This document shows positions 7,764 through 21,099 of a stretch of DNA of 21,099 nucleotides, one piece after another. Below the pieces are notes generated by a model. That model worked only from the letters and a program-made list of their open reading frames with translations. It was not told the origin of the DNA and searched no databases. The position numbers were made by a program, and so were the translations under genes. Location: IMG/VR virus record IMGVR_UViG_3300007520_000095, positions 1 through 21,099 of that record; one strand, 5' to 3'. This stretch comes from a virus. The first letter of the stretch is position 1, and every line of letters begins with the position of its first letter.

Positions 7764-8276
7764 ATGATGAACCTCTTGAACATGCCGAATAGCGAAACTG
7801 AACACGGCCTGACCCAGCGTGAGGCTGCCGCTCGCCTCAAGGTTTCGGTCGGCACCATCAACCGCCGGGTCCGGGACGGGGACCTGGCCCTTCTGCCCAA
7901 CGGCAGGATCGACGCCGCCGGCCTTTCTGACACGTCGAACATCGCTGCCGAAATCGCACATGGCGCCCCCCGCAACTCGATCGGCCGCACCGCATCCCAG
8001 GCACGAGCCGAGCGCGATCAGGTCCTCGCCCGCATGGCCGGCCTCGACTACGCCGAGCGCGTTGGCCAGCTCGCCGCCACGGCCGATGTCGAAGCGGAGC
8101 AGACCACCATTGCCCGCCGCTTCCGTGATGGCCTGCTGTCCATACCAGCTCACCTGGCCCCCTCGCTAATCAACCTCCCCGATCCGCGCCAGATCGAGAC
8201 CGCGCTCCGGCGCGCCTTCACCCAGTTCCTCGACGGCCAGGCTGCCGCCCTTCATGACGAGCCCGCTCCCCCCTGA
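7764..8276 (+). CDS. Terminase small subunit (Nu1-like), 170 aa
   Basis: The small terminase recognises the phage DNA packaging site and recruits the large subunit. Residues 16-53 form a MerR/Nu1-type winged helix (LTQREAAARLKVSVGTINRR, then LLPNGRIDAAG). The middle and C-terminal parts (80-165) are helical, for oligomerisation and TerL contact. The length is close to lambda Nu1 (181 aa). The next gene is a GpA-type large terminase and overlaps it by 23 bases, which confirms the pairing. The start is uncertain between ATG 7764, 7767 and 7782; none has a good ribosome site, and TGAACATG occurs at both 7759 and 7777. Base usage switches here from G-rich to C-rich third codon positions. Confidence 0.8.
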   Translation: MMNLLNMPNSETEHGLTQREAAARLKVSVGTINRRVRDGDLALLPNGRIDAAGLSDTSNIAAEIAHGAPRNSIGRTASQARAERDQVLARMAGLDYAERVGQLAATADVEAEQTTIARRFRDGLLSIPAHLAPSLINLPDPRQIETALRRAFTQFLDGQAAALHDEPAPP

Positions 8277-10260
8277 CATCGCGCGCGACCTTGCCCCTGC
8301 ATTCGCCATCGTGCGGGCTGCATGGACCCGCGGCCTCGCCCCCGACCCCGAGCGCACCGTCGACCAGTGGGCCGATGCTGAGCGAATTGTCGCAGCCGAA
8401 TCAGGCAGCCCATGGCCCGGCAAATGGACTACAGCCCGTGTCCCCTACATGCGCGAGCCAATGCAGAAGATGTCGCTCAGCGACCCCTGCCGCCGTGTCA
8501 CGCTGAAGAAATCGGCGCAGACCAGTGGCTCGGAAGCCGGCCTGAATCTGCTCGGCCAGATCATGGCTGAAACACCCTGCCCCGTGCTGGTCATGCTCCC
8601 CAGCAACGACGAAGGCGGCGACTACAACCGGCTCAAGCTTCAGCCGATGATCGACGCCACCCCTGCAGTGGCCGCCCGCGTCCGCGGCATCGTCAGCCGC
8701 TCGGCGACCAGCTCGACGACCACCTTCAAAATGTTCGCCGGCGGCTACTTGCAGATCCTGGGCGCAAACTCCTCGAAAAACCTCCAGATGCGCACCGCCC
8801 GCGTGTTGCTGAACGAGGAAATCAGCGAATTCCCCTGGGACGTCGACGGCCGCGGCGACCCGCTGGTGCTCGCCGAAGAACGCCTGCAGATGTACACCGG
8901 CCGCGAAAAGATCGTGGACGTCTCCACCCCCGGCCTCGAAGGCAAGTGCCGCGTCTCCAGCCTCTACGCGCGCAGCTCCGGCGGCCGGTTCATGGTCCCA
9001 TGCCCGCATTGCAACGCCCGCCAGGTGCTAGAATTCAACAGCCTGCGCTGGGACATCGAGAAGGGCATCGCCGAATACGTCTGCACCGCCAATGGCTGCA
9101 TCATCGAAGGCCACCACAAGCCCGGCATGATCGCTGACGGCACGTGGTCGCATGACCGTCCCGAGCTGCTCGACATCCACGCCGGCTACCACATCAACGC
9201 GCTCTACAGCCCGGTGCTCACCTGGCTCGACGTCGCCAAGTCCTTTGAGGATGCTCGCGCCGCCGGCAACCTGAAGGTCTTCACCCAGCAGAAGCTGGGC
9301 CTGGAATTCAAGGAACAGGGCGAGGCCCCCGACCACGCCCGCCTGCACGCCACCCGCGAGCGCGACCGCGAGCTTCGCCGCCTGCCCCCGGAAGTCCTCT
9401 GGCTCACCGGCGCCGCCGACGTCCAGGGCGACCGCATTGAGTGGGACGTCTACGCCTGGGGCCCCGGCCTCACCTGCTGGCTGGTCGACACCGGCATCAT
9501 CATCGGCCAGCCCACCGACGACGCCACATGGCGCCAGCTCACCGAGGTCGCGGAGCGCCGCTACACCGACACCCGCGGCCGCACCTGGCCGATAGACGCC
9601 TTCGGGTGCGACTCCGGCTACATGAGCCAAGCCGTCTATCGCTGGACGATGAACGACCCCGCCCCCACCGGCCGCCGATTTGCCCTCGATGGCCAGGGCA
9701 AGCCGGCCCTGCCGGCCCTCGGCACCGGCAAGAAAATCGATGTCGACTATGCCGGCCGCAAACTTGGCGCGGTCATCCTTTGGCCGGTCGGAACCCACAG
9801 CCTGAAACTGGCCCACTACGCCGCGATCCGCCGCACCCTGGCCGGCCCATTGCCCGACGGCACCATGCCGCGCGGCCTGCTGCACCTGCCCGGCTTGGTT
9901 GATGAGGAATACTGCCGCCAGCTCACCGCCGAATTTCTCTACCAGCCGGCCAAGGGCCGCCCTGAATGGCGCGTGATCACGGGCACCCGCAACGAACGGC
10001 TGGACACGGCAGTCTATGCCCGCGCCTTGGCCCACCACCTGACCGACAGCCTCACCCCGGCCGACTGGCAGAACCTCGCCGCCAGCCGCGCGCTCGACCC
10101 CGCCGCCAGCCAGGCCGACCTCGCCGCCTACTGGTCGGAGCGGTTCGGCACGGATGAACGGCCGGCTCCGCGCCGCCCGGCTTCCCCAACGCCCGCCGTC
10201 GCCGCCGCGGCAATGCACCAGGGCCGCACCGTCGCCGGCACCGGCCGCCGCCTCGCCTGA
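8254..10260 (+). CDS. Terminase large subunit, GpA family, 668 aa
   Basis: This is the motor and nuclease that cuts concatemers and pumps DNA into the prohead (lambda gpA, 641 aa). The N-terminal ATPase part has the family's K-S-x motif region at residues 85-94 (KKSAQTSGSE) in the Walker A position and VLLNEE at 184-189 in the Walker B position, with Asn instead of the usual Asp. Residues 250-282 form a Cys4 zinc-finger-like element (C250PHC253, C277 and C282). The nuclease half has FGCDSGY with Asp453 and a late acidic/Arg region around TGTRNERLDTAVYARALAHH. ATG 8254 is the first start and overlaps TerS. A cos-type packaging mechanism is expected from the family. Confidence 0.93.
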   Translation: MTSPLPPDIARDLAPAFAIVRAAWTRGLAPDPERTVDQWADAERIVAAESGSPWPGKWTTARVPYMREPMQKMSLSDPCRRVTLKKSAQTSGSEAGLNLLGQIMAETPCPVLVMLPSNDEGGDYNRLKLQPMIDATPAVAARVRGIVSRSATSSTTTFKMFAGGYLQILGANSSKNLQMRTARVLLNEEISEFPWDVDGRGDPLVLAEERLQMYTGREKIVDVSTPGLEGKCRVSSLYARSSGGRFMVPCPHCNARQVLEFNSLRWDIEKGIAEYVCTANGCIIEGHHKPGMIADGTWSHDRPELLDIHAGYHINALYSPVLTWLDVAKSFEDARAAGNLKVFTQQKLGLEFKEQGEAPDHARLHATRERDRELRRLPPEVLWLTGAADVQGDRIEWDVYAWGPGLTCWLVDTGIIIGQPTDDATWRQLTEVAERRYTDTRGRTWPIDAFGCDSGYMSQAVYRWTMNDPAPTGRRFALDGQGKPALPALGTGKKIDVDYAGRKLGAVILWPVGTHSLKLAHYAAIRRTLAGPLPDGTMPRGLLHLPGLVDEEYCRQLTAEFLYQPAKGRPEWRVITGTRNERLDTAVYARALAHHLTDSLTPADWQNLAASRALDPAASQADLAAYWSERFGTDERPAPRRPASPTPAVAAAAMHQGRTVAGTGRRLA

Positions 10261-10281
10261 TCCACACGCAAGGAATTTCCC

Positions 10282-10491
10282 GTGGCCACCTACACCGAGC
10301 AACTCGCGCAGGTTGAGACGGCGATCGCCCGGGCCGAGCTGGGCCAGGAGGTGGCTGGCGCCGATGGCCGCCGCATCCGCCGCGGCGATTTGGCCACGCT
10401 GTACGCCGAACGCCGCCGCCTCACCGCGCTCGCCGCCCGCGAAGCCGTCAGCCGCACCGGTCCATCGATCAGCCGCGGCGCCGCCGGATGA
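10282..10491 (+). CDS. gpW-like head-tail joining protein, 69 aa
   Basis: Lambda gpW (68 aa) plugs the portal after packaging and forms the binding site for the tail. This protein has the same length and place (between terminase and portal) and the same plan: an N-terminal helix (TYTEQLAQVETAIARAELGQ), a short hairpin with DGRRIRRGDLATL, and a second helix (YAERRRLTALAAREAV). The start is GTG 10282 with AAGGAA about eight bases upstream. Its stop overlaps the portal start as ATGA, indicating coupled translation. Confidence 0.85.
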   Translation: MATYTEQLAQVETAIARAELGQEVAGADGRRIRRGDLATLYAERRRLTALAAREAVSRTGPSISRGAAG

Positions 10492-12110
10492 ACCTGGTGG
10501 ACCGCGCCATCGCCTATGTGTCGCCGCGTTTGGGCGCCCAGCGCGCTCGCGACCGGCTGCACCTCACCGCCGCCTCCGGCTACGACGCCGCCCGGCGTGA
10601 GCTGTCGGCCATGCGCAACTTCTCCGCCCGTGGCCAGACCGCCGACGCCGACACGCTGCCGAACCTCGGCGAAATCCGCGCCCGCTCGCGCGCCATGTTG
10701 ATGAACGCTCCGCTCGCCGCCGGTGCGGTCAATACTGTCGTCACCAACGTCGTCGGCACCGGCCTGCGCTTCTCGCCCCAGGCACGCGGCACCGACCTCG
10801 CCGCCCTGGCCGGAGTCACGCCCGCGCAGGTTCTCGCATTTGAGCAGGGGGCCGAGCGCGAATGGCGCCTGTTTCAACGCGCGGAGCATTGCGACGCCGC
10901 TGGCCAAACGGGCTTTGCCGCGATGCAGGAGTTGGCCTTCCGCGCGGTGCTCGCCAGCGGCGACTGCCTTGCCTTGATGGTGCAGGCGCCGCGCGGCGCG
11001 CCGTTTGATTTCGCACTGCAGCTCGTCGAAGCCGACCGCCTGAGCAACCCGCAATTCAAGGCTGACAGCGAGACGCTGGCGGGTGGAGTGGAGTTCAACG
11101 CCGCCGGCCGCCCGGTCGCCTACCACGTCGCCGAGATGGAGCGCACCACATCGGTGCAGCGAAGCTGGCGCCGCCTGCCGGCCACTGCGCCGGACGGCTC
11201 GCCCCGCGTGCTGCACCTGCTGCACCGCCAGCGCATCGGCCAGTCTCGCGGCGTGCCCTACCTGGCGCCGGTCATGGCCACCTTGAAGCAGATCGACCGA
11301 TACACCGAAGCCGAAGTGACCGCGGCCGTCCTGAACGCCTGCATCGCCATCATCGGCGAGTCGCCCACCGGCGACAGCCCGTTGAAGGCCGAGGCCGTGG
11401 CGGCCGGCGCCGGCACCTCCAGCGCCCCGGGCTTTCGCCGCGCCGAGATTAACTACGAACCCGGCATGACTCTGGAAGGCTTCTTGCCCGGCGAGTCGCT
11501 GAAAAGTTTCAGCCCCGACCGCCCTAGCAGCGGCTTCGACGCCTTTGTCCAGGCCGTGCTGCGCCAGGTGGGCGTGGCGTTGGAACTGCCGTTCGAGTTG
11601 CTGGTGAAGCATTTCACTGCCAGCTATTCGGCCGCCCGCGCCGCTCTGCTCCAGGCTTGGGGCTTCTTCCGGATGCGCCGCGCCTGGCTGGCGGACGCGC
11701 TGTGCCAGCCGGTCTACGAGCTGGTCATCGCCAATGCCATCGTGCGCGGCCGCATCACGGCCCCGGGCTTCCTCGTCGACCCCGCGATCCGCGCCGCCTG
11801 GTGCGGTGCGCGCTGGACCGGCCCCAGCCCCGGCCAGCTCGACCCGCTGAAGGAAGTGAACGCGGCCGAGAAGCGCCTCGCCCTGCGCCTGTCCACCCGC
11901 ACCCGCGAAACCGCCGAAATCACCGGCGATGACTGGGAGCAGACCATCGCTGAGTATGGCGAGGAACTGGACGTCATGGCCGCGCGCGGAGTGCCGCAAA
12001 GCGACGAGCCACCCGCTGCGCCACCGCTGCTCGGCCACAGCGGCGGCCCGCCGATCGCCGAGGAAGAAGACCCCGCCGACGGCAGCGACACCGACCTGGA
12101 GGCCGCATGA
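10488..12110 (+). CDS. Portal protein, lambda gpB family, 540 aa
   Basis: The portal dodecamer forms the DNA channel at one vertex of the head. The length is close to lambda gpB (533 aa). Diagnostic stretches are the N-terminal RARSRAMLMNAPLAAGAVNT and VVGTGLRFSPQ, the middle LQLVEADRLSNP, HLLHRQRIGQSRGVPYLAPV and LKQIDRYTEAEVTAAVLNAC, and later GVALELPFELLVKHFTASYS, with ARAALLQAWGFFRMRR after it. The C-terminal tail (500-540) is acidic and disordered-looking. It is coupled to the gpW-like gene upstream and to the protease downstream by ATGA overlaps. Confidence 0.93.
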   Translation: MNLVDRAIAYVSPRLGAQRARDRLHLTAASGYDAARRELSAMRNFSARGQTADADTLPNLGEIRARSRAMLMNAPLAAGAVNTVVTNVVGTGLRFSPQARGTDLAALAGVTPAQVLAFEQGAEREWRLFQRAEHCDAAGQTGFAAMQELAFRAVLASGDCLALMVQAPRGAPFDFALQLVEADRLSNPQFKADSETLAGGVEFNAAGRPVAYHVAEMERTTSVQRSWRRLPATAPDGSPRVLHLLHRQRIGQSRGVPYLAPVMATLKQIDRYTEAEVTAAVLNACIAIIGESPTGDSPLKAEAVAAGAGTSSAPGFRRAEINYEPGMTLEGFLPGESLKSFSPDRPSSGFDAFVQAVLRQVGVALELPFELLVKHFTASYSAARAALLQAWGFFRMRRAWLADALCQPVYELVIANAIVRGRITAPGFLVDPAIRAAWCGARWTGPSPGQLDPLKEVNAAEKRLALRLSTRTRETAEITGDDWEQTIAEYGEELDVMAARGVPQSDEPPAAPPLLGHSGGPPIAEEEDPADGSDTDLEAA

Positions 12111-13531
12111 CCAGCCGCATCATCGCCCGCCTCACCGGCCATCCCTGGCTGATCCAGTCCGAGGCGTTGGACACCATGCTGCAACTCGCCGCCCGCGATA
12201 TGCCAGACGAGGCGACCATCGACGCCTGGAAGCGCGGGCCGTCGCGTGAGGCGCTGGCATCCCGCCAGGGCGACAGCCTCGGCAACGCCCCCACCGCCCG
12301 CGTGCGCAATGGCGTGGCCATCGTGCCCATCGCCGGCCCGATCTTCCGCTATGCCAACCTGTTCACCAATTTCAGCGGCGCCACCGCCTTGTCGGATTTC
12401 GCGGCCAACATGGCCGCCGCCGTGGCCGACAGCCGGGTGAAGTCAATCGTGCTGGAAATCGACAGCCCTGGCGGCGAGGTGACCGGCTTGGCCGAAGCCG
12501 CGCGCATGATCGCCGAGGCCGCCATCACCAAGCCGGTCGCGGCGTTCATCGAAGGCGCGGCCATGTCGGCGGCCTACTGGCTGGCCAGCGCCGCCGGCGA
12601 GATCACCATTGCCAGCACCGGCGCGGTCGGCTCGCTCGGCGCCGTCGTCGCTATGCAGGACAGCCGCGACGCCCAGGCGAAATCCGGTGTGCGTCGCTAC
12701 CAGTTCGTCTCCAGCCAGACGCCGAACAAACTGCTCGACCCCACCACCGACGCGGGTGCCGCGCGGGTGCAGGCGTTCGCCGACCGTCTCGCCGGTGAGT
12801 TCCTGGCCGACGCCGCCGGCAATCGCGGCATGTCCGTCGCGGACCTGCTCGCCGCCACCGACGGCGGTGGCCTGCTGGTCGGCGCCGATGCGGTGGCCGC
12901 CGGCCTCGCCGATCACGTGGGCGGCTTTGAGGAAACACTGGCCCGCCTGGCTGCCGGCGGTGGCCGCCTGCGCACGTCCATTCCATCCCGCCCCACCGGA
13001 CCCGCCCCGCGGGCCACATCTCAGGAGCCCGCCATGAGCAACCCCGCTCAGACCGAAGCCCCGGCCTCCACGCCGGAGACCACCGCCGAAGCCAGCGCGC
13101 CGCCCCCGGCCCCGATCGCCGAGGCAGCGGCCCCGCCCGCCACGCCCCCCGCCGATCCCGTCGCCGTCGAGCGCACCCGCTGCGCCGCCATCCAGTCCGC
13201 CGCCGGCCCCGGCTTCGGCGCGCTGGCCACCCTCGCCGTCTCCAGCGGCTGGCCGGTGGAGCAGTTCACCGCCGCCCAGGCGGCCAGCCAGTCCGCCGTG
13301 GATGCCGCCCGCACCCAGGCGACCGCCGGCGCCTTCCGCGACTCCCTGCCGGCCCCCATCGCCGGGGGCGGCGCGGCGGGCGATCTGCCGGCCGACCCGG
13401 GCGAGCGTGCGAGGTTGGAGTTCGCCGCTGATCCCAAGTTGCGGGCCGAGTTCGCCACCGAGGGCCGCTACGTCGCGTACGTCCAGGCCGTGGCCGCCGG
13501 CAAGGTCCGCACCATCGGCAAGCGCGCCTGA
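12107..13531 (+). CDS. S49-family head maturation protease with C-terminal scaffold, 474 aa
   Basis: This is the lambda gpC counterpart (439 aa), cleaving itself and scaffold during prohead maturation. The S49/SppA-type protease domain spans about residues 66-285, with VKSIVLEIDSPGGEVTGLAE and IEGAAMSAAYWLAS. Ser154 is the likely nucleophile. Lys208 (in SSQTPNKLLDP), 54 residues later, is the likely general base, a spacing close to that in lambda gpC. Residues 286-360 are an Ala/Pro-rich linker, and 360-474 form a helical scaffold-like domain. ATGA couples it to the portal. A nested in-frame start at codon 310 probably gives the free scaffold. Confidence 0.9.
   Translation: MTSRIIARLTGHPWLIQSEALDTMLQLAARDMPDEATIDAWKRGPSREALASRQGDSLGNAPTARVRNGVAIVPIAGPIFRYANLFTNFSGATALSDFAANMAAAVADSRVKSIVLEIDSPGGEVTGLAEAARMIAEAAITKPVAAFIEGAAMSAAYWLASAAGEITIASTGAVGSLGAVVAMQDSRDAQAKSGVRRYQFVSSQTPNKLLDPTTDAGAARVQAFADRLAGEFLADAAGNRGMSVADLLAATDGGGLLVGADAVAAGLADHVGGFEETLARLAAGGGRLRTSIPSRPTGPAPRATSQEPAMSNPAQTEAPASTPETTAEASAPPPAPIAEAAAPPATPPADPVAVERTRCAAIQSAAGPGFGALATLAVSSGWPVEQFTAAQAASQSAVDAARTQATAGAFRDSLPAPIAGGGAAGDLPADPGERARLEFAADPKLRAEFATEGRYVAYVQAVAAGKVRTIGKRA
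13034..13531 (+). CDS. Nested scaffold protein (Nu3-like), 165 aa
   Basis: Inside the protease gene, in the same frame, ATG 13034 is preceded by a strong ribosome site (AGGAG at 13023-13027, six bases away). It would yield the last 165 residues: an Ala/Pro-rich leader, then a helical part (WPVEQFTAAQAASQSAVDAA onward) typical of phage scaffolds. Lambda uses the same trick: Nu3 is translated from within gene C. Internal initiation is inferred from sequence and from this precedent. Confidence 0.65.
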   Translation: MSNPAQTEAPASTPETTAEASAPPPAPIAEAAAPPATPPADPVAVERTRCAAIQSAAGPGFGALATLAVSSGWPVEQFTAAQAASQSAVDAARTQATAGAFRDSLPAPIAGGGAAGDLPADPGERARLEFAADPKLRAEFATEGRYVAYVQAVAAGKVRTIGKRA

Positions 13532-13592
13532 CCTGCTCACCCCACCCAGCCTCCGGCCGGCCTGAAGGCCGCCGCGCACAGGACCCGCACCC

Positions 13593-14150
13593 ATGACCCA
13601 GCTTGCCACCGCCGTTGCCCGAACCTACGTGCAGGGCGATATCGAAGATCTTCAGGTCGCGGCCGCCGTCGCCATCTACGAGGGCAGCGCCATCGGCCTT
13701 GTCTCCGGCTACGCCCGCCAGCTCGCGGCCGGCGACAAGTTCCAGGGCTTCGCTTTGTGCGATGTTGCCGTGCAGACCAGCGCTGGCGATCAGCGCGTGC
13801 GCGTCCGCACCAAGGGCCGCATCGTGCTGACCGTCGCCTCGGTGGCAGTCACCGACATCGGCAAGCCGGTGTTCGCCAGCGACGGCAACGCCTTCACGCT
13901 CACCCAGTCCACCAACAGCCATATCGGCCGCGTGGCCGACGTGTATGGCGCCAACCTGGCGCTGGTTGAATACGACGCCCACCGCGCCGGCCTCGGTGCC
14001 GGCGGCATCGCCGAACTGACGGACAGCTCCGGCGGCACCGCCAGCGATACCCTGGCCGCTATCACCGGCTCGTACGTCGAAGCGACCATCGAAAATACGG
14101 TGGCGAGCATGGCAGCCAAGATCAACGCCATCATCCGCCAACTCGGCTGA
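13593..14150 (+). CDS. Capsid decoration/cement protein (DUF2190-like, gpD position), 185 aa
   Basis: Decoration proteins bind the expanded capsid and stabilise it. Residues 13-120 carry the family's beta-rich pattern: VQGDIEDLQVAAAVAIYEGS, LVSGYARQLAAGDKFQGFAL, VRVRTKGRIVLTV, then GKPVFASDGNAFTLT and SHIGRVADVYG. Residues 130-185 are an extra C-terminal stretch, Gly/Ser/Thr-rich and then helical (TVASMAAKINAIIRQLG), not found in lambda gpD (110 aa); it may trimerise. The gene lies between protease/scaffold and capsid genes, as D does in lambda. AGGAC precedes ATG 13593. Confidence 0.8.
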   Translation: MTQLATAVARTYVQGDIEDLQVAAAVAIYEGSAIGLVSGYARQLAAGDKFQGFALCDVAVQTSAGDQRVRVRTKGRIVLTVASVAVTDIGKPVFASDGNAFTLTQSTNSHIGRVADVYGANLALVEYDAHRAGLGAGGIAELTDSSGGTASDTLAAITGSYVEATIENTVASMAAKINAIIRQLG

Positions 14151-14151
14151 T

Positions 14152-14184
14152 CCGGCCTCACTCCACCTCATGGCGCCAGGCCGG
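14152..14184. repeat. 7-bp inverted repeat between decoration and capsid genes
   Basis: CCGGCCT (14152-14158) and AGGCCGG (14178-14184) are perfect complements with a 19-nt loop, just after the decoration gene stop and before the capsid ribosome site. No U-run follows. It may stabilise or process the highly expressed capsid mRNA, or be chance in GC-rich DNA. Confidence 0.35.
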
Positions 14185-14219
14185 CCGTTGAGCCCCCGCG
14201 CGCGAAGGAACCCTGAACA

Positions 14220-15179
14220 ATGACTCTCGGCACAGGCATCGGCGCGAACTACAGCTCGCGCGCCATCATCGGTCGCTTTTACGAGCGGCTCTCCGAAACC
14301 CAGCCCCCGGCGTGGGTGGAGAGCCTCGCCTTTCGGGTGGACAGCGACCAGCCCAGCGAGACCTACAACTGGCTCGGCATGTCGCCAGTCATGCGCGAAT
14401 GGGTCGGCGGCCGGGCTGCGCAGGGTTTCCGCACCAACGGCTTGACGGTCACCAACCGGCTGTTCGAGGCCACGGTCAACGTCTCGCTGGACGACATCCG
14501 CCGCGACAAGACTGGCCAGTTTCTCGCCCGCATCGATGAGCTGCCCGGCCGCGCCCAGCAGCACCGCGCCCGCCTGCTCACCGATCTGATCCTGACCGGC
14601 GAAGCCGCTGTGTGCTACGACGGGCAGTTCTTCTTTGACACCGACCACGCCGAGGGCAGTAGCGGCACCCAGTCAAACGACCTCGCCTTCGACATTTCCG
14701 ACAACGGCACCGGCGGCACTGCTACCGCGCCGGCAGCGAGCACCATCCAGGCGGCGGTCCTTCAGGCCGTTCAGGCCATCATGGGCTTCAAGGATGACAA
14801 GGGCGAGCCCGTCAACGAGGGGGCGATGAACTTTGAGGTTCACGTGCCGGTCACGTTCATGGGTGAAACGATGAAGGCGCTGGATATGCCGCTGATTGGC
14901 GGCGGCGACAGCAACGTCCTGGTGAACAATCGGAAATTCAACCTGATCTCGGTCATCAACCCGCGTCTGACCTGGACCACGAAGCTGGCGGTCTACAACA
15001 CCGACGGCACCACGAAGCCGTTCATCGAGCAGGTCGAATACGATCCCATCATGGTGGCAATCGCCGAGGACTCCGAGCACGAGAAGCTCAAGCGCGAGCA
15101 CATCTACAGCGTCGAGCGCATGGGCAACGTGGCGTTCGGCATGTGGCAGAAGGCCTGCCTCGTCACGCTGGCGGCCTGA
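14220..15179 (+). CDS. Major capsid protein, Mu gpT-like, 319 aa
   Basis: The main head shell subunit. It resembles the Mu gpT family rather than lambda gpE. Features include the N-terminal SSRAIIGRFYERLSE, VREW-type SPVMREWVGGRAAQGFRTNG, VSLDDIRRDKTGQFLARIDE, and the family hallmark CYDGQFFFDTDHAEG at about residues 138-153. The C-terminal half has FEVHVPVTFMGETMKALDMP and YNTDGTTKPFIEQVEYDP, then YSVERMGNVAFGMWQKACLV. The length is close to Mu gpT (305 aa). The ribosome site GAAGGAA lies nine bases before ATG 14220. A Mu-type capsid inside a lambda-type packaging module indicates modular exchange. Confidence 0.88.
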   Translation: MTLGTGIGANYSSRAIIGRFYERLSETQPPAWVESLAFRVDSDQPSETYNWLGMSPVMREWVGGRAAQGFRTNGLTVTNRLFEATVNVSLDDIRRDKTGQFLARIDELPGRAQQHRARLLTDLILTGEAAVCYDGQFFFDTDHAEGSSGTQSNDLAFDISDNGTGGTATAPAASTIQAAVLQAVQAIMGFKDDKGEPVNEGAMNFEVHVPVTFMGETMKALDMPLIGGGDSNVLVNNRKFNLISVINPRLTWTTKLAVYNTDGTTKPFIEQVEYDPIMVAIAEDSEHEKLKREHIYSVERMGNVAFGMWQKACLVTLAA

Positions 15180-15972: not shown

Positions 15973-17148
15973 ATGCCCGTAACGACACTCATCCGCTTTC
16001 GTCAGGCCGCCGTGGCGGTCAAGGCCGAAGTCACTCCTGGCACCGACAGTATCGCCGGCACGCCCGCCACGGGTGACTGGGTGGCCGGCTCCGGCACGCT
16101 GGCGCTCAACCCCATCGTCATTTCGGACCCCAGCTTCACCGGCAGCATGGACGCCGCGGTGGACAGCGTTGGCGGCTTCAAGCCGACGCTTACCCTGCAG
16201 GTGCCGTTTCGGGGCTCCGGCACTGCTGGCACCGAGCCTGGGGTGGCCAAGCTGCTCAAGGCCTGCACCATGGCGGTCACCACCACCGCCGCCGCTGTCG
16301 GCGTCCCCACCGCCGCCGCCGCCGGCACCACCACCACCGTCACCGCCGCCACGCCATTCGGCACCACGGCCGACGCGTACAACGGCATGCCGCTGATCGT
16401 GGCTGGCGACCAGTCCTTCACAACCGGAATCGTTGACTACACGGCAGCTCGGGTCATCAGCATGGGCGAAACCCGCACCGCGCTGACCACCGACAGCGAC
16501 CTGCAGATCCCGATCAACAATATCTATCGCCCGACCTCCGACGAGGCCGTCTTTACGACCACGAGCATCTACCTGTTTCATGACGGAATCCGCTACAGGC
16601 TGACGGGCTGCCAGGGCACCTGGTCGTTGGAGATGACGGCCGGTGGCAGCGGCATGTTTACGTTCACGCTCACCGGTCAGCTTTCCGCCGCGCCCGATAG
16701 CACCGTCCTGCCCGCCGGGGCCGCCGCCGCCCTCTCCGCCCTTCCCACGGCGCCGGTGTGGATGAACGGCCGCAGCCAGATCAACCTTGGAACCGCGCGG
16801 GTGCGGACCTTCCGCTTGGATTTCGGCGTGCAATCGGTGCTGCCCGACAACCCCGAGTCGATCTACGGCTTCGATCCTGGCGTGCCGATCGGCCGCCGCC
16901 CCGCTGGCAGCATCGACCCGCTGGCCGACACCGCCACCCATGTGGCCATGTTCAGCGCGATGTCCGCGAATACCGCCGTGCCATATTTCGCCATTCTCGG
17001 CAGCACCGCCGGCAACCGCATGCTGGTGATGGTCGCCGCCATGCGCATGCAGGGCATGGACCTGGCCGAGCGCGATGGGCTCGGCGCCCACAACATCCCA
17101 TTCCAGGCGGACGGCCCGGACGCCGGCTGTTCGCTCTGCTTCTTCTGA
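15973..17148 (+). CDS. Major tail tube protein, 391 aa
   Basis: It forms the stacked hexameric rings of the tail tube. Location (after the terminator-like gene, before the tail chaperones) and beta-rich composition fit gpV-type tube proteins. Recognisable segments are FTGSMDAAVDSVGGFKPTLT and LQVPFRGSG, a mid-section YRLTGCQGTWSLEMTAGGSG with MFTFTLTGQLSAAPD, and a C-terminal VRTFRLDFGVQSVLPDNPES. Residues 98-122 are an Ala/Thr-rich low-complexity stretch, encoded by GCC and ACC runs at 16260-16350, that may be a surface loop. It is longer than lambda gpV (246 aa). GGAG lies six bases before ATG 15973. Confidence 0.78.
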   Translation: MPVTTLIRFRQAAVAVKAEVTPGTDSIAGTPATGDWVAGSGTLALNPIVISDPSFTGSMDAAVDSVGGFKPTLTLQVPFRGSGTAGTEPGVAKLLKACTMAVTTTAAAVGVPTAAAAGTTTTVTAATPFGTTADAYNGMPLIVAGDQSFTTGIVDYTAARVISMGETRTALTTDSDLQIPINNIYRPTSDEAVFTTTSIYLFHDGIRYRLTGCQGTWSLEMTAGGSGMFTFTLTGQLSAAPDSTVLPAGAAAALSALPTAPVWMNGRSQINLGTARVRTFRLDFGVQSVLPDNPESIYGFDPGVPIGRRPAGSIDPLADTATHVAMFSAMSANTAVPYFAILGSTAGNRMLVMVAAMRMQGMDLAERDGLGAHNIPFQADGPDAGCSLCFF

Positions 17149-17157
17149 GGAAACACG

Positions 17158-17769
17158 ATGCCGGATGACATGATCTCCACCGCCGAGCCGGTGTTCAGCG
17201 CGCTGGACACCGACACCATCACGCCGGACGGTTCGCCGCGCAGCTACACGTTGCGGGTGCCGAGCTACCGCCAGGCCAACGCCGTGCGCCGCCTGTTGCG
17301 CCAGATTGCCGGCACGGACTTTGTGCAGGCCGTGCTGCTCGACACGCTGCGCGAGGTGATGCGCCAGATCGCACCGCCGAACCTGGCCGAGGTGCTGGCG
17401 CAGATCGACGAGGCCGAGGCAACGCCGGAGGACCGGCGCGCCCAGGCCCGCCTGCAGGTGATCGAGGCGGCGGCCATGCCGGTGCCCGCGTATGCGGAAA
17501 TGGTCGACCGCCGCGACCGGTACGTCGAGCAAATGCCAGTTGTACGCCTGCGCCACATGCTGGTGGACTGGCGCGGCCCCGGCCTGCCGCCCTTCGCCAC
17601 CGTCGGCGGGCTGGCGCCGGAGGATATCGATGACATCATTCCCGCCCCGGAGTTCGCCGCCCTGGCCCGCCGCGCCGAGTCGCTGCTGGTGGTCGGTCGG
17701 GCCATGGTGGGAAACTCCGTGGCGCCTACCACGTCGCCCGCGATCCCGCCAATTTCGCCGGAGGGCTGA
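17158..17769 (+). CDS. Tail assembly chaperone (gpG-like), 203 aa
   Basis: G-type proteins hold the tape measure protein while the tail tube assembles. The N-terminus has ITPDGSPRSYTLRVPSYRQA, like other tail chaperones that begin with a small beta region. A helical middle follows (NAVRRLLRQIAGTDFVQAVL; DRRAQARLQVIEAAAMPVPA). The zero-frame product ends at TGA 17767-17769. Before that stop, GGGAAAC at 17709-17715 is a canonical -1 slippery heptamer, so a fraction of ribosomes should make a longer GT fusion. It lies between tube and tape measure genes as in lambda, where gpG is 140 aa. Confidence 0.8.
   Translation: MPDDMISTAEPVFSALDTDTITPDGSPRSYTLRVPSYRQANAVRRLLRQIAGTDFVQAVLLDTLREVMRQIAPPNLAEVLAQIDEAEATPEDRRAQARLQVIEAAAMPVPAYAEMVDRRDRYVEQMPVVRLRHMLVDWRGPGLPPFATVGGLAPEDIDDIIPAPEFAALARRAESLLVVGRAMVGNSVAPTTSPAIPPISPEG
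17709..17715 (+). other. Programmed -1 ribosomal frameshift site (G GGA AAC)
   Basis: In the chaperone's reading frame the codons read G-GGA-AAC. Slipping back one base re-pairs both tRNAs as GGG-AAA, the same type of site used by lambda G-T (GGGAAAG). The -1 frame is open from 17634 to its stop at 18009-18011. A small hairpin, CGTGG (17718-17722) with CCACG (17729-17733), follows directly and may help. Confidence 0.85.
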
Positions 17770-18011
17770 GGCTCGAAGGCGGCTCGGCGTGGCTGCTCGG
17801 CGGCGAGGAATGGACCCGGAACCCGCGCCTGGTCATACCGCCCGCCTGGCACGGTTTCGTGCGCCTGTGGTCGAATTGCCGTGGCGAGACGGGCTTTGCG
17901 CATTGGCCCGACCCCGGCGGCGTCAACGATCAGGCGGCCTGGGTGGTGGACGCGTTCGCGGCGTTGTCAGCGATCGACGCGGAATGGCGGGCTGAGAGAA
18001 AGACCGGATGA
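17715..18011 (+). CDS. T-like extension of the tail chaperone, made as a GT fusion (-1 frame)
   Basis: After slippage at 17709-17715, translation continues in the -1 frame for 98 codons and ends at TGA 18009-18011, overlapping the next start as ATGA. The fusion would be 186 + 98 = 284 aa, almost the size of lambda gpGT (279 aa). The extension is protein-like and not a shadow: LEGGSAWLLGGEEWTRNPRL, then WHGFVRLWSNCRGETGFAHW and DPGGVNDQAAWVVDAFAALS. It has no good start codon of its own, which also argues for frameshifting. It fills what would otherwise be a 238-base gap between tail genes. The T part is expected to contact tube subunits or the tape measure. Confidence 0.8.
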   Translation, partial: LRGAYHVARDPANFAGGLRLEGGSAWLLGGEEWTRNPRLVIPPAWHGFVRLWSNCRGETGFAHWPDPGGVNDQAAWVVDAFAALSAIDAEWRAERKTG

Positions 18012-18742
18012 CCTATATTCGCGCCACCGTCACCGGCAACCTCGTCAAGGCCATGGACACCGAAATCCGCAAGGTCGCGGGCGCGCTGCGGCGGGCGGTG
18101 GAAACCACGGGCAAGCAGGTGCAGGGCGAGCTCCGCGCCCAGGCCCGCGGCGCCGGCTTCAAGGATCGTGGGCGGTCCATCGCCAATGCGTGGCGGCTGG
18201 CCGTGTATCCCCGCCCCGGCATGGGCACGCGGAGCCTCAAGCCAGCTGCGCTGGTCAGCAGCCGCATGTCAAAGGTGGTGGAGGCATTTGACAAGGGCGC
18301 CGAGATCACCGCCAAGAACGGCAAATACATGGCATTCCCCACGGGCTACAACGCGCGCGGCGGCAGGCGTGGCGCCGGCACCCGGGGCGGTGTGCGTGTC
18401 ACCACTGACCAGATGATCGCGGCGGGCAAGCGCGGCGAGGCCTTCGTGCTGAAACTGGACGGCCGCCCCGGCCGGGCTTTGTGGTGCCTTCGGGTGGCCG
18501 ATGCGCGCGGCAAAAAGAACAAGCTGCGCCTGTTCGTTGGCACCAGCACGGAGGTGGTCACCGGCAAGGTCAAGGGCCTCGCCCAGCGCCGCAAGGATGT
18601 GCTGGCACAAGGCTTCGTGCCGATGTTCTTCCTGATGCGGCGCGTGACCCTGCGCAAGCGCCTGGACGTGGCCGGCGTCCGCGCCCGCGCCGGCGCGATG
18701 TACGCGGCGAACGCGGTGCGGGAGCTGAACGCGCTGGGCTAG
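18008..18742 (+). CDS. Tail-associated protein (DUF6441-like), 244 aa
   Basis: Probably a minor tail or tail-completion protein. The basic N-terminal helix (KAMDTEIRKVAGALRRAVET, then TGKQVQGELRAQARGAGF) followed by IANAWRLAVYPRPGMGTRSL, ALVSSRMSKVVEAFDKGAEI and GKYMAFPTGYNA matches the general plan of proteins found between tail chaperone and tape measure genes in alphaproteobacterial phages (DUF6441). It is also reminiscent of HK97 gp10-type proteins. ATG 18008 is coupled to the chaperone extension (ATGA). Its TAG stop overlaps the stop of the convergent lipoprotein gene within the palindrome CTAG. Family assignment comes from memory of sequence pattern and is moderate. Confidence 0.65.
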   Translation: MTYIRATVTGNLVKAMDTEIRKVAGALRRAVETTGKQVQGELRAQARGAGFKDRGRSIANAWRLAVYPRPGMGTRSLKPAALVSSRMSKVVEAFDKGAEITAKNGKYMAFPTGYNARGGRRGAGTRGGVRVTTDQMIAAGKRGEAFVLKLDGRPGRALWCLRVADARGKKNKLRLFVGTSTEVVTGKVKGLAQRRKDVLAQGFVPMFFLMRRVTLRKRLDVAGVRARAGAMYAANAVRELNALG

Positions 18743-19038
18743 GGCATCTGCCCTGTGCTGCGCCAGTAATCCATGCAGCTGGCGTGCATCTGGTTGGCCC
18801 GTGCGGTTCCCTCCAAGTCGAGAATTGACCGGGCCTGCCAACCGGCCATCGCAAATTGCGTCTTCGTGCGGCAGCCAAGATCGGCCTGCTTTGTGCCTGA
18901 TCGGCGTTCTTCCCGATCCGAATAGATCGCGTAAGCGCGCTGTGCCTCGCGTTCGACTTCCGTCATCCGCTGCGCCGGGGCAATCCCCTGCGTCGCGCAC
19001 CCCGCCAGCGCCACCGCCACCAACACCATCGCCCGCAT
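18739..19038 (-). CDS. Small lipoprotein in opposite orientation (moron-like), 99 aa
   Basis: The N-terminus is a bacterial lipoprotein signal (MRAMVLVAVALAGC, lipobox LAGC, lipidated Cys14), so the mature protein should be anchored on the outer or inner membrane facing the periplasm. The mature part (about 85 residues) is helical and charged (MTEVEREAQRAYAIYSDREE), with two further cysteines, Cys56 and Cys88, that could form a disulfide. A strong ribosome site (GGAGGA, four bases before ATG 19038) fixes the start. It is the only minus-strand gene in the late region and has its own weak promoter candidate. This is typical of a lysogen-expressed moron, for example for superinfection exclusion or envelope change. 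Specific function unknown. Confidence 0.75.
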   Translation of the reverse strand: MRAMVLVAVALAGCATQGIAPAQRMTEVEREAQRAYAIYSDREERRSGTKQADLGCRTKTQFAMAGWQARSILDLEGTARANQMHASCMDYWRSTGQMP

Positions 19039-19093: not shown

Positions 19094-19108
19094 GAGGAGC
19101 GCGTGAGC

Positions 19109-21099
19109 ATGAGCGGCAGTCGCCCTTCGGTCGGCATTCGGATCAGCGCGGAGGGGGCCGACCTCGCCCGGCAGAAGCTGGAGAACATCGGCACGACCGG
19201 CGATGCGGCAATGCGCCGGGTGGCCGGGGCGTCCACTGCTGCCAGGCCGGCCATCCAGGGCGTGGCCGGTGCCGCCGATGGGGTGCAGCGGTCCATCGTT
19301 GGCCTGAACGGCAATCTCAGCCTGTTGGCGTCGGGATTTGCCGGCGCGGCGGCAGCCGGCACAGCGATGGGCGTGGCGTTGGTGGGCGGCTTCACCGCCT
19401 CCGTCCGCGCTGCCGAGCAGTTCGAGCGGCTCGGCCTGCGCACCGAGGCAGTCATCAAGGCGACCGGCGGCGCGGCCGGCCTGTCGGCACAGCAAATCCG
19501 CGAAATGTCGCAGGAACTGGCGCGCGGCACCCTGGCCAGCACAGCCGGCGTTGAGGCTGCGGCGCAAAAGCTGCTCACATTCCGCAGCATCGCCGGCGAC
19601 GCCTTTGGCCGCACCCTGCGCGCGGCGCAGGACCTGGCGGCGGTCGGCTTCGGCTCGATCGACTCCGCCGCCACCCAGCTTGGCAAGGCGCTGGAAAGCC
19701 CCGTTACCGGCATGAGCGCGCTGGCCGAAGTCGGCGTGTCATTCACGGCGGCCCAAAAGGAAGTCGTGGCGCAGCTCGTCGCCACCGGCCGCGCGGCCGA
19801 GGCCCAGGCAATCATCCTGGCGGCGGTTGAACAGCAGGTTGGTGGCGCGGGTGGTGCCGAGGCTGGCGGGCTGGCCGGCGCCTATGACACGCTGGCCCAA
19901 AATACCGAGGAGTTCCTGCTGGCGATCGGCAATCGCGGGCCGATTCAATTAGCGACGGTATCGTTGCAGGCTCTTGCTGGTGTCGTAAAGGAACTCAATG
20001 AGCTTGTAACGTCGCGCAGCGGTGCTGCTGCCGCGCGTGCCGGCGTTACTGCTGCTGAGTCGGCTCTTGCTGCTGCTGAGAAGGCGCAAACGCGGCGGGG
20101 GTTCCTTGGCGGCGCTCTATCGCTTGGCGAGGGCGCACGGGAGATCGAACGCGCCCGCGCGGCATTGAGAGAAGCAAAACAGGAAGAAGAACAGATACTC
20201 GTTGACGCATACGCGCGTCAGGCCGCGCTGGCCGCTAAGTCGGCGATTGAACAGGCTGGTATACAGCGCGCGGCCTCAGCCGCCGCCGTGCGGGCGTTGG
20301 AGCTGGAATCCAACAAAAAGGAACATATCCAGGAGAAGTTCCGGCAGAAGCGCGCGGTCATCGACGAGGCCGAGCGCACCGGCGCGCGCACCGCCGAGGA
20401 AGCCGCGGCCCTTCGCAGCACTTCCAACCAGCAGGAAATCGAAGAACTCGACAAGCTGGCCGGGGCACAGGCTGGGGTTGCCGCCGCCACGCGCGGGCGC
20501 GGCGATGCGGCCAAGGAAGCCCAAGCCGTCGAGCGTGCCGCCAACAAGGAAGCCGCTGCCGCCGTCAAGGCGGTCCAGAAGGTGCAAGAGGAAGCCCGCG
20601 CCAAGGCGCTGTCGGAGGTCGACCGCTTCAACCGGGAGGTTGAGAGCCAGTCCCGCCGCGTGGCCGACGACGTGGCGACGAACCTGTTCGAGGCGATGAC
20701 AGGCGACGGCAAGGGCGAGAGCGTTGTTGATTTCTTCAAGAACATTTTCAAGCGCATTGCCATCCAGGCGCTGAGCGCCAACATCATCCTGCCGATCACC
20801 ACGGCCATCATCGGCGGCGCGCCGGGCCTGTTCGGGATCAACGCGCCTGGGCAGGCCGGCGGTGGCGGCGTGGGTGGCATCGGCGACATTCTCGGCCTTG
20901 GCAACCTGACCAGCGGCTTGTCTTCTCTCGGTTCGTATCAGCTCATCAGCCCTGGCGGCGGCTACATCAGCCCGATAGGCGAGGCCGGGGCACCGATCGG
21001 CGGCCTGACCCTGGGCGGTCTGGCAGGCTCGGCGGCCCTGGGGTTCGGGGTCGGCGGCCTGACGGCAGGGCTGACCGGTGGCAACAGCCTGGGCGGCGG
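19109..21099 (+). CDS. Tail tape measure protein (partial, C-terminus missing)
   Basis: It sets tail length and is ejected with DNA. 663 codons are open to the window edge. ATG 19109 is preferred to GTG 19103 because AGAGGAG ends nine bases before the ATG but only three before the GTG. The N-terminus (VGIRISAEGADLARQKLENI) starts the typical TMP helical region. Residues 60-100 contain a Gly/Ala hydrophobic stretch (GFAGAAAAGTAMGVALVGGF), and AAEQFERLGLRTEAVIKATG follows. Residues 320-530 are Ala/Glu/Lys/Arg coiled-coil. Near 525-560, TNLFEAMTGDGKGESVVDFF and FKRIAIQALSANIILPITTA match the lambda-type tape measure C-terminal domain. Codons at 19940-20280 are unusually AT-ending. Confidence 0.85.
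   Translation, partial: MSGSRPSVGIRISAEGADLARQKLENIGTTGDAAMRRVAGASTAARPAIQGVAGAADGVQRSIVGLNGNLSLLASGFAGAAAAGTAMGVALVGGFTASVRAAEQFERLGLRTEAVIKATGGAAGLSAQQIREMSQELARGTLASTAGVEAAAQKLLTFRSIAGDAFGRTLRAAQDLAAVGFGSIDSAATQLGKALESPVTGMSALAEVGVSFTAAQKEVVAQLVATGRAAEAQAIILAAVEQQVGGAGGAEAGGLAGAYDTLAQNTEEFLLAIGNRGPIQLATVSLQALAGVVKELNELVTSRSGAAAARAGVTAAESALAAAEKAQTRRGFLGGALSLGEGAREIERARAALREAKQEEEQILVDAYARQAALAAKSAIEQAGIQRAASAAAVRALELESNKKEHIQEKFRQKRAVIDEAERTGARTAEEAAALRSTSNQQEIEELDKLAGAQAGVAAATRGRGDAAKEAQAVERAANKEAAAAVKAVQKVQEEARAKALSEVDRFNREVESQSRRVADDVATNLFEAMTGDGKGESVVDFFKNIFKRIAIQALSANIILPITTAIIGGAPGLFGINAPGQAGGGGVGGIGDILGLGNLTSGLSSLGSYQLISPGGGYISPIGEAGAPIGGLTLGGLAGSAALGFGVGGLTAGLTGGNSLGG

Follow-up and report, generated by a model that had tools for sequence, protein, structure and literature searches.

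We find that the virus DNA analysed here (IMG/VR record IMGVR_UViG_3300007520_000095; the whole stretch of 21,099 nucleotides is called the window) very probably has a tail assembly chaperone gene expressed by programmed −1 ribosomal frameshifting. The mechanism is a known one and the protein family is uncatalogued, and the case is very well supported. Its elements in the window are as follows.

17158..17769, + strand: G-like gene, an open reading frame with a zero-frame product of 203 aa
17634..18011, + strand: the open −1 frame at full length; the segment before the heptamer is not conserved
17709..17715, + strand: slippery heptamer GGGAAAC, read G GGA AAC in the G-gene frame, identified by phase, uniqueness and conservation
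17715..18011, + strand: T-like extension after a −1 slip, 98 aa plus stop, a conserved domain in relatives with a confident model

Both the G-like stop at 17769 and the −1 frame open from 17634 to 18011, as an earlier note on this DNA had described them, are found in the sequence and in the list of open reading frames. A −1 slip at 17709–17715 joins 186 G residues to 98 T residues in a 284-aa fusion with a computed mass of 31.2 kDa, against 22.1 kDa for G; recomputing the note's arithmetic (a 98-residue extension, a 284-aa fusion and a 238-base gap left by routine gene calling) returned the same values. The T frame ends in ATGA (18008–18011), where its stop shares bases with the ATG of the gene downstream. 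The claim that a single fitting heptamer lies in the overlap, in the correct phase, also stands: GGGAAAC is the sole XXXYYYZ sequence there in any phase, and the nine window genes examined, 3195 codons in all, have no other strong heptamer in phase; synonymous-codon redraws put a strong heptamer at 17709–17715 in only 1.1% of 20,000 draws. The −1 frame was further said to lack a start of its own, and the first possible T-frame start (ATG, GTG or TTG) indeed lies at least 150 nt past the heptamer.

We envision that the majority of ribosomes would make the 203-aa G-like protein. In a minority, the tRNAs would re-pair one base back within G GGA AAC, from GGA and AAC to GGG and AAA; translation would then continue in the −1 frame and yield the 284-aa G–T fusion, which ends at 18011. 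If the two products act as in lambda, their common G part may coat the tape measure protein, and T, present only in the less abundant fusion, may recruit the tail tube protein; a passage in PMC5009743 describes lambda gpG and the rarer gpGT as loading the tube protein on the tape measure. The frames, the heptamer and its phase are observed directly, as are the conservation and gene order given below; what we infer is the chaperone role and the slippage in the host, including how often it occurs.

Used as a protein query, the −1 frame returned 23 virus contigs and 17 genome contigs, mostly from Roseomonas and other Acetobacteraceae. When these 40 loci were inspected together with the window, 40 of the 41 extended to the slip site, the exception (L041) being excluded because a contig edge cuts it before the heptamer, and all 40 carried GGGAAAC or AAAAAAC at the same residue. 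Profile searches added virus contigs with the T domain and gave matches in genomes of one family (34 of 397), its class (6 of 385), its order (34 of 395) and its phylum (5 of 398); ten loci from the order and phylum searches were inspected, the remaining ones lying at places taken as already counted. The profile matched in 142 of 142 loci of a first census. Ninety-two sites and 39 distinct ones from 46 new loci were then combined, with duplicates merged and the window included, into 129 distinct sites, leaving out partial places (G217:C492, G061:C25:145000) and places with no locus (such as G1155:C18, G1160:C1 and G1155:C88:14001). The T domain is a conserved domain whose family is absent from Pfam, PHROGs and NCBIfam; neither G nor T gave a match above chance in these three libraries, and the G protein alone, as a query, found no relative in the virus contigs or the phage collection.

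An in-phase heptamer of the form X XXA AA[CAG] occupies all 129 distinct sites in the same −1 phase (AAAAAAC 74, GGGAAAC 49, GGGAAAA 3, AAAAAAA 2, GGGAAAG 1), and is present as well in ten of ten further loci and three of three remote named phages. The earlier note had named homologues that would count against its reading, those whose −1 frame is interrupted by stops and those lacking the heptamer; none appeared among the 129 sites, ten loci and three named phages. Some heptamers sit 3 to 21 nt from the first position of the profile, as N-terminal alignment gaps would give; at two loci (L197, L198) the heptamer was first missed, with the best profile segment elsewhere, and was recovered via a K-K-L motif, a route that presupposes part of the answer. 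Among 92 sites the first three bases are GGG in 46 and AAA in 46, with no mixed case, and the next three are AAA in all 92. Since only GGG and AAA occur there, despite the rarity of these codons elsewhere in the G genes (AAA for 12% of Lys, GGG for 17% of Gly), the conservation of the heptamer exceeds that of the protein. The state changes between GGG and AAA nine times on the best T tree, where well-supported branches alone force only one change, and in two pairs of relatives that are 85–87% identical near the site all three X bases differ. Across the heptamer, identity rises from 0.19 to 0.33 in the T frame and from 0.18 to 0.24 in the unused third frame; in the G frame it stays at 0.20–0.21 throughout. 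One point of background counts against the frameshift: a passage in PMC5009743 has A_AAA_AAC as less shift-prone than A_AAA_AAG in E. coli. The same source, in the part concerned with tail chaperones, describes their frameshift as conserved despite low sequence similarity, and a passage of another (PMC10885494) puts the joined tail assembly chaperones in a set of 3679 actinophage genomes at 2397; frameshifted tail assembly chaperones are thus common.

The family extends to more distant phages. Four loci from the phylum-wide search (L196–L199) share a K-K-L start and have AAAAAAC in the −1 phase, and one of them, used as a query, led to Rhodobacter phage RcZahn (E 7e-3), Microcystis phage Mae-JY22 (2e-8) and Alteromonas phage P24 (5e-3), the set labelled L221, L222 and L223, with RcZahn and P24 marginal by score. 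Each of the three has AAAAAAC in −1 phase within the gene before T, and T is followed directly by the tape measure gene. They are alike in the T domain of the wider family and in K-K-L at the slip site; they differ from the window in that the match amounts to 32.6–36.6% over the matched part, in their Cys residues and in that no frameshift is annotated in their records. The RcZahn record gives T (gene 28) as a separate, shortened CDS annotated "tail assembly chaperone", that of Mae-JY22 has it as a separate shortened gene, and that of P24 leaves it out. Synechococcus phage MinM1 (L042) is a direct match whose record holds a truncated T starting 63 nt past the heptamer; 26 G-frame codons in the end of that record were read. 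Our literature search found nothing on frameshifts in Roseomonas prophages or on MinM1. As a separate observation, the T domains of L196–L199 and L221–L223 carry a CxxC-like Cys pattern and a later Cys-Pro, both absent from the window's group; such a pattern could bind a metal.

The surroundings of the gene bear on its function. In the window it is flanked by the following genes.

15973..17148, + strand: tail tube (major tail) protein (Pfam Phage_tube_2, 30.1 bits, cut-off 27)
18008..18742, + strand: DUF6441 gene, between T and the tape measure gene (Pfam DUF6441, 66.5 bits)
19103..21097, + strand: tape measure protein, open at the window end (Pfam TMP_2, E 6.9e-5, below the cut-off)

A tail tube gene lies upstream in 77 of the 83 relatives with enough flank, and a DUF6441 gene downstream, often further off, in 65 of 88. 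The structure model of G is confident and helical (mean pLDDT 86.6), its last helix ending at residue 183, just before the slip codons, and T is modelled as a confident small domain (mean pLDDT 92.2). Against viral models (BFVD), the best match of G is unnamed (E 7.9e-4); among its best 50 rows, 11 carry a functional name, and for 8 of these it is that of a tail assembly protein or chaperone (E no better than 0.08; 0.08–0.9 for those named tail assembly chaperone). By fold, neither G nor T has a match in the PDB at E ≤ 0.001. In a second fold comparison a Mu baseplate chain reached Z 5.9 over 69 residues; we set it aside, as this may reflect just an arrangement common among helical proteins. 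WD-repeat and titin-like chains from a PDB sequence profile (E 0.015 or worse) were taken as chance.

A system close in layout is lambda gpG/gpGT, which shares the overlapping frames, the −1 shift, a GGGAAA-type heptamer in the same codon phase and the place between the tail tube and tape measure genes. The earlier note's comparison with lambda is right as to geometry, gene G of J02459 having GGGAAAG in the same codon phase. The differences are that lambda G has 140 aa and T 144 (as annotated), against 203 and 98 in the window, that the last heptamer base is G in lambda and C in the window, and that in the window a DUF6441 gene separates T from the tape measure gene. The earlier note set the 284-aa fusion against 279 aa for lambda gpGT. 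The names "G-like" and "T-like" are justified by position and mechanism; homology to lambda gpG or gpT was not detected by hhalign against single lambda sequences (probability 0.1%). For HK97, AF069529 similarly annotates gp13/gp14 as a chaperone with an extension by −1 frameshift, located ahead of the tape measure gene, and G there is much shorter than the window's; for two genes of an HK97-like chaperone cluster, a passage in PMC3711429 gives 6–7% frameshifting. Between its chaperone and tape measure genes HK97 also carries gp15, annotated as a moron, to be compared with a 99-aa open reading frame at 18739–19038 of the window. This frame, located after the DUF6441 gene and before the tape measure gene, runs on the − strand, against the direction of the tail genes; it has a lipoprotein-like N-terminus with a signal-like stretch ending in LAGC (the lipobox is our own reading), no relative in the virus contigs and, in Pfam, just a sub-threshold hit to DUF6491. 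Further upstream, at 8254–15179, the head module is a mosaic in which a lambda-type terminase (GpA), portal and S49 protease adjoin a Mu gpT-like major head protein.

A real frameshift could in principle serve another tail function than that of an assembly chaperone, as the lack of detected sequence homology to lambda or other catalogued chaperones and the DUF6441 gene separating T from the tape measure gene in the window might suggest. We consider this improbable: the gene follows that of the tail tube and, in the three named phages, directly precedes the tape measure gene; T of RcZahn is annotated as a tail assembly chaperone; and BFVD rows so named are among the matches to the G model. The G/T gene resembles lambda G/GT in arrangement and, most likely, would do so in function.

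The position of the switch between frames is closely delimited. At two loci (L021, L187) a stop stands just before the heptamer, so that the T frame opens at the heptamer itself, and 32 of the 129 sites have a G-frame stop codon immediately behind it (AAAAAAC followed by TGA or TAA, GGGAAAC by TGA). With T-frame stops just before and G-frame stops just after, the switch is confined to the heptamer. In this stop-adjacent subgroup (for example L121, L125, L132 and L151) the unshifted protein ends at the slip site; most other sites keep a short G tail, the commonest stop ending 61 nt from the heptamer start (69 of 129).

These sites also speak to whether T might instead be translated from a start codon of its own, either internal or translationally coupled; GenBank annotation treats T as a separate gene in RcZahn and MinM1. 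In RcZahn an ATG at the end of the G gene, 21 nt past the heptamer, is the annotated start of the separate tail assembly chaperone CDS, and a possible T start lies within 150 nt upstream in 31 of the 129 sites, 12 of them ATG. Against this, 72 of the 129 have no ATG, GTG or TTG between the upstream T-frame stop and 48 nt past the heptamer; candidate starts, where present, are not at a conserved place; in the window, a start as late as the first available one would cut the conserved N-terminal T helix; and a separate start leaves the heptamer unexplained. We therefore regard a separate gene as very unlikely. That the frames are joined by RNA polymerase slippage on the A run, or broken by sequencing or assembly error, is hardly credible even though the AAAAAAC sites have runs of six or seven As, since GGG precedes the As in 53 of the 129 sites, leaving no long homopolymer there, and the same frame break recurs in 129 distinct sequences from many assemblies.

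Besides the heptamer, the programmed ribosomal frameshift may draw on a second signal, for which the window offers two candidates by anti-Shine-Dalgarno complementarity.

17687–17695, + strand: possible Shine-Dalgarno-like stretch, G-rich, about −5.6 kcal/mol
17694–17701, + strand: possible Shine-Dalgarno-like stretch, −3.8 kcal/mol

Across the family, anti-Shine-Dalgarno complementarity peaks 6–13 nt before the heptamer. In 30 clusters formed at 70% identity it averages −5.01 kcal/mol, against −4.00 in synonymous redraws (0 of 1000 as low), and it is at or below −4 in 23 of the 30 against 13.2 expected; such redraws are a fair control because only the G frame is translated upstream of the heptamer. 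An earlier figure (z −15.8 over 92 related sites) was overstated, kin having been counted repeatedly, and is replaced by the cluster value. The window's own element is weak, at percentile 0.129 of its redraws, as are those of L044, L117 and L120, of the stop-adjacent group (median −2.7) and of P24 (−2.6); lambda has −2.1 at the same place. A passage in a review puts upstream stimulators of −1 shifts at a spacing of 9–14 nt. Our hypothesis, modestly supported by the clustered sites, is that in many members the shift is stimulated by a Shine-Dalgarno-like element located about 10 nt ahead of the heptamer; for the window the case is less clear. The heptamer named in the earlier note is borne out by its conservation, and the signal in the family is probably wider. 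No downstream stem-loop was detected: the mean folding z at +7 to +62 is −0.10 over 36 representatives, pseudoknots left out, and z in the window itself lies between −0.92 and 1.57. E. coli dnaX pairs a slippery heptamer with an upstream Shine-Dalgarno-like stimulator, as may also be the case in this family; it differs in also using a downstream stem-loop and in being a different gene with a different purpose. In the open-access literature searched we found no report of a Shine-Dalgarno-like stimulator in tail chaperone frameshifts. Tentatively, and as a composite that may well not hold in all its parts, we propose a large uncatalogued chaperone family in phages of Alphaproteobacteria, with remote kin in Alteromonas and cyanobacteria phages, whose bipartite signal would consist of the Shine-Dalgarno-like element about 10 nt upstream and X XXA AAC, with no downstream structure; the slippery triplet would flip between GGG and AAA, and the upstream element would tune the G:GT ratio.

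The mechanism is textbook, and the interest of the case lies in annotation and in the comparative signal. That Pfam, PHROGs and NCBIfam lack the family is probably due to the frameshifted product being invisible to gene callers, and the public records of MinM1, RcZahn, Mae-JY22 and P24 truncate, separate or omit the T domain. A T-domain profile combined with the heptamer would repair annotation in many prophages of Acetobacteraceae and their relatives. The family also provides a natural experiment on slippery sites: at a constant position GGGAAAC and AAAAAAC have replaced each other several times, and the element upstream of them differs among members.
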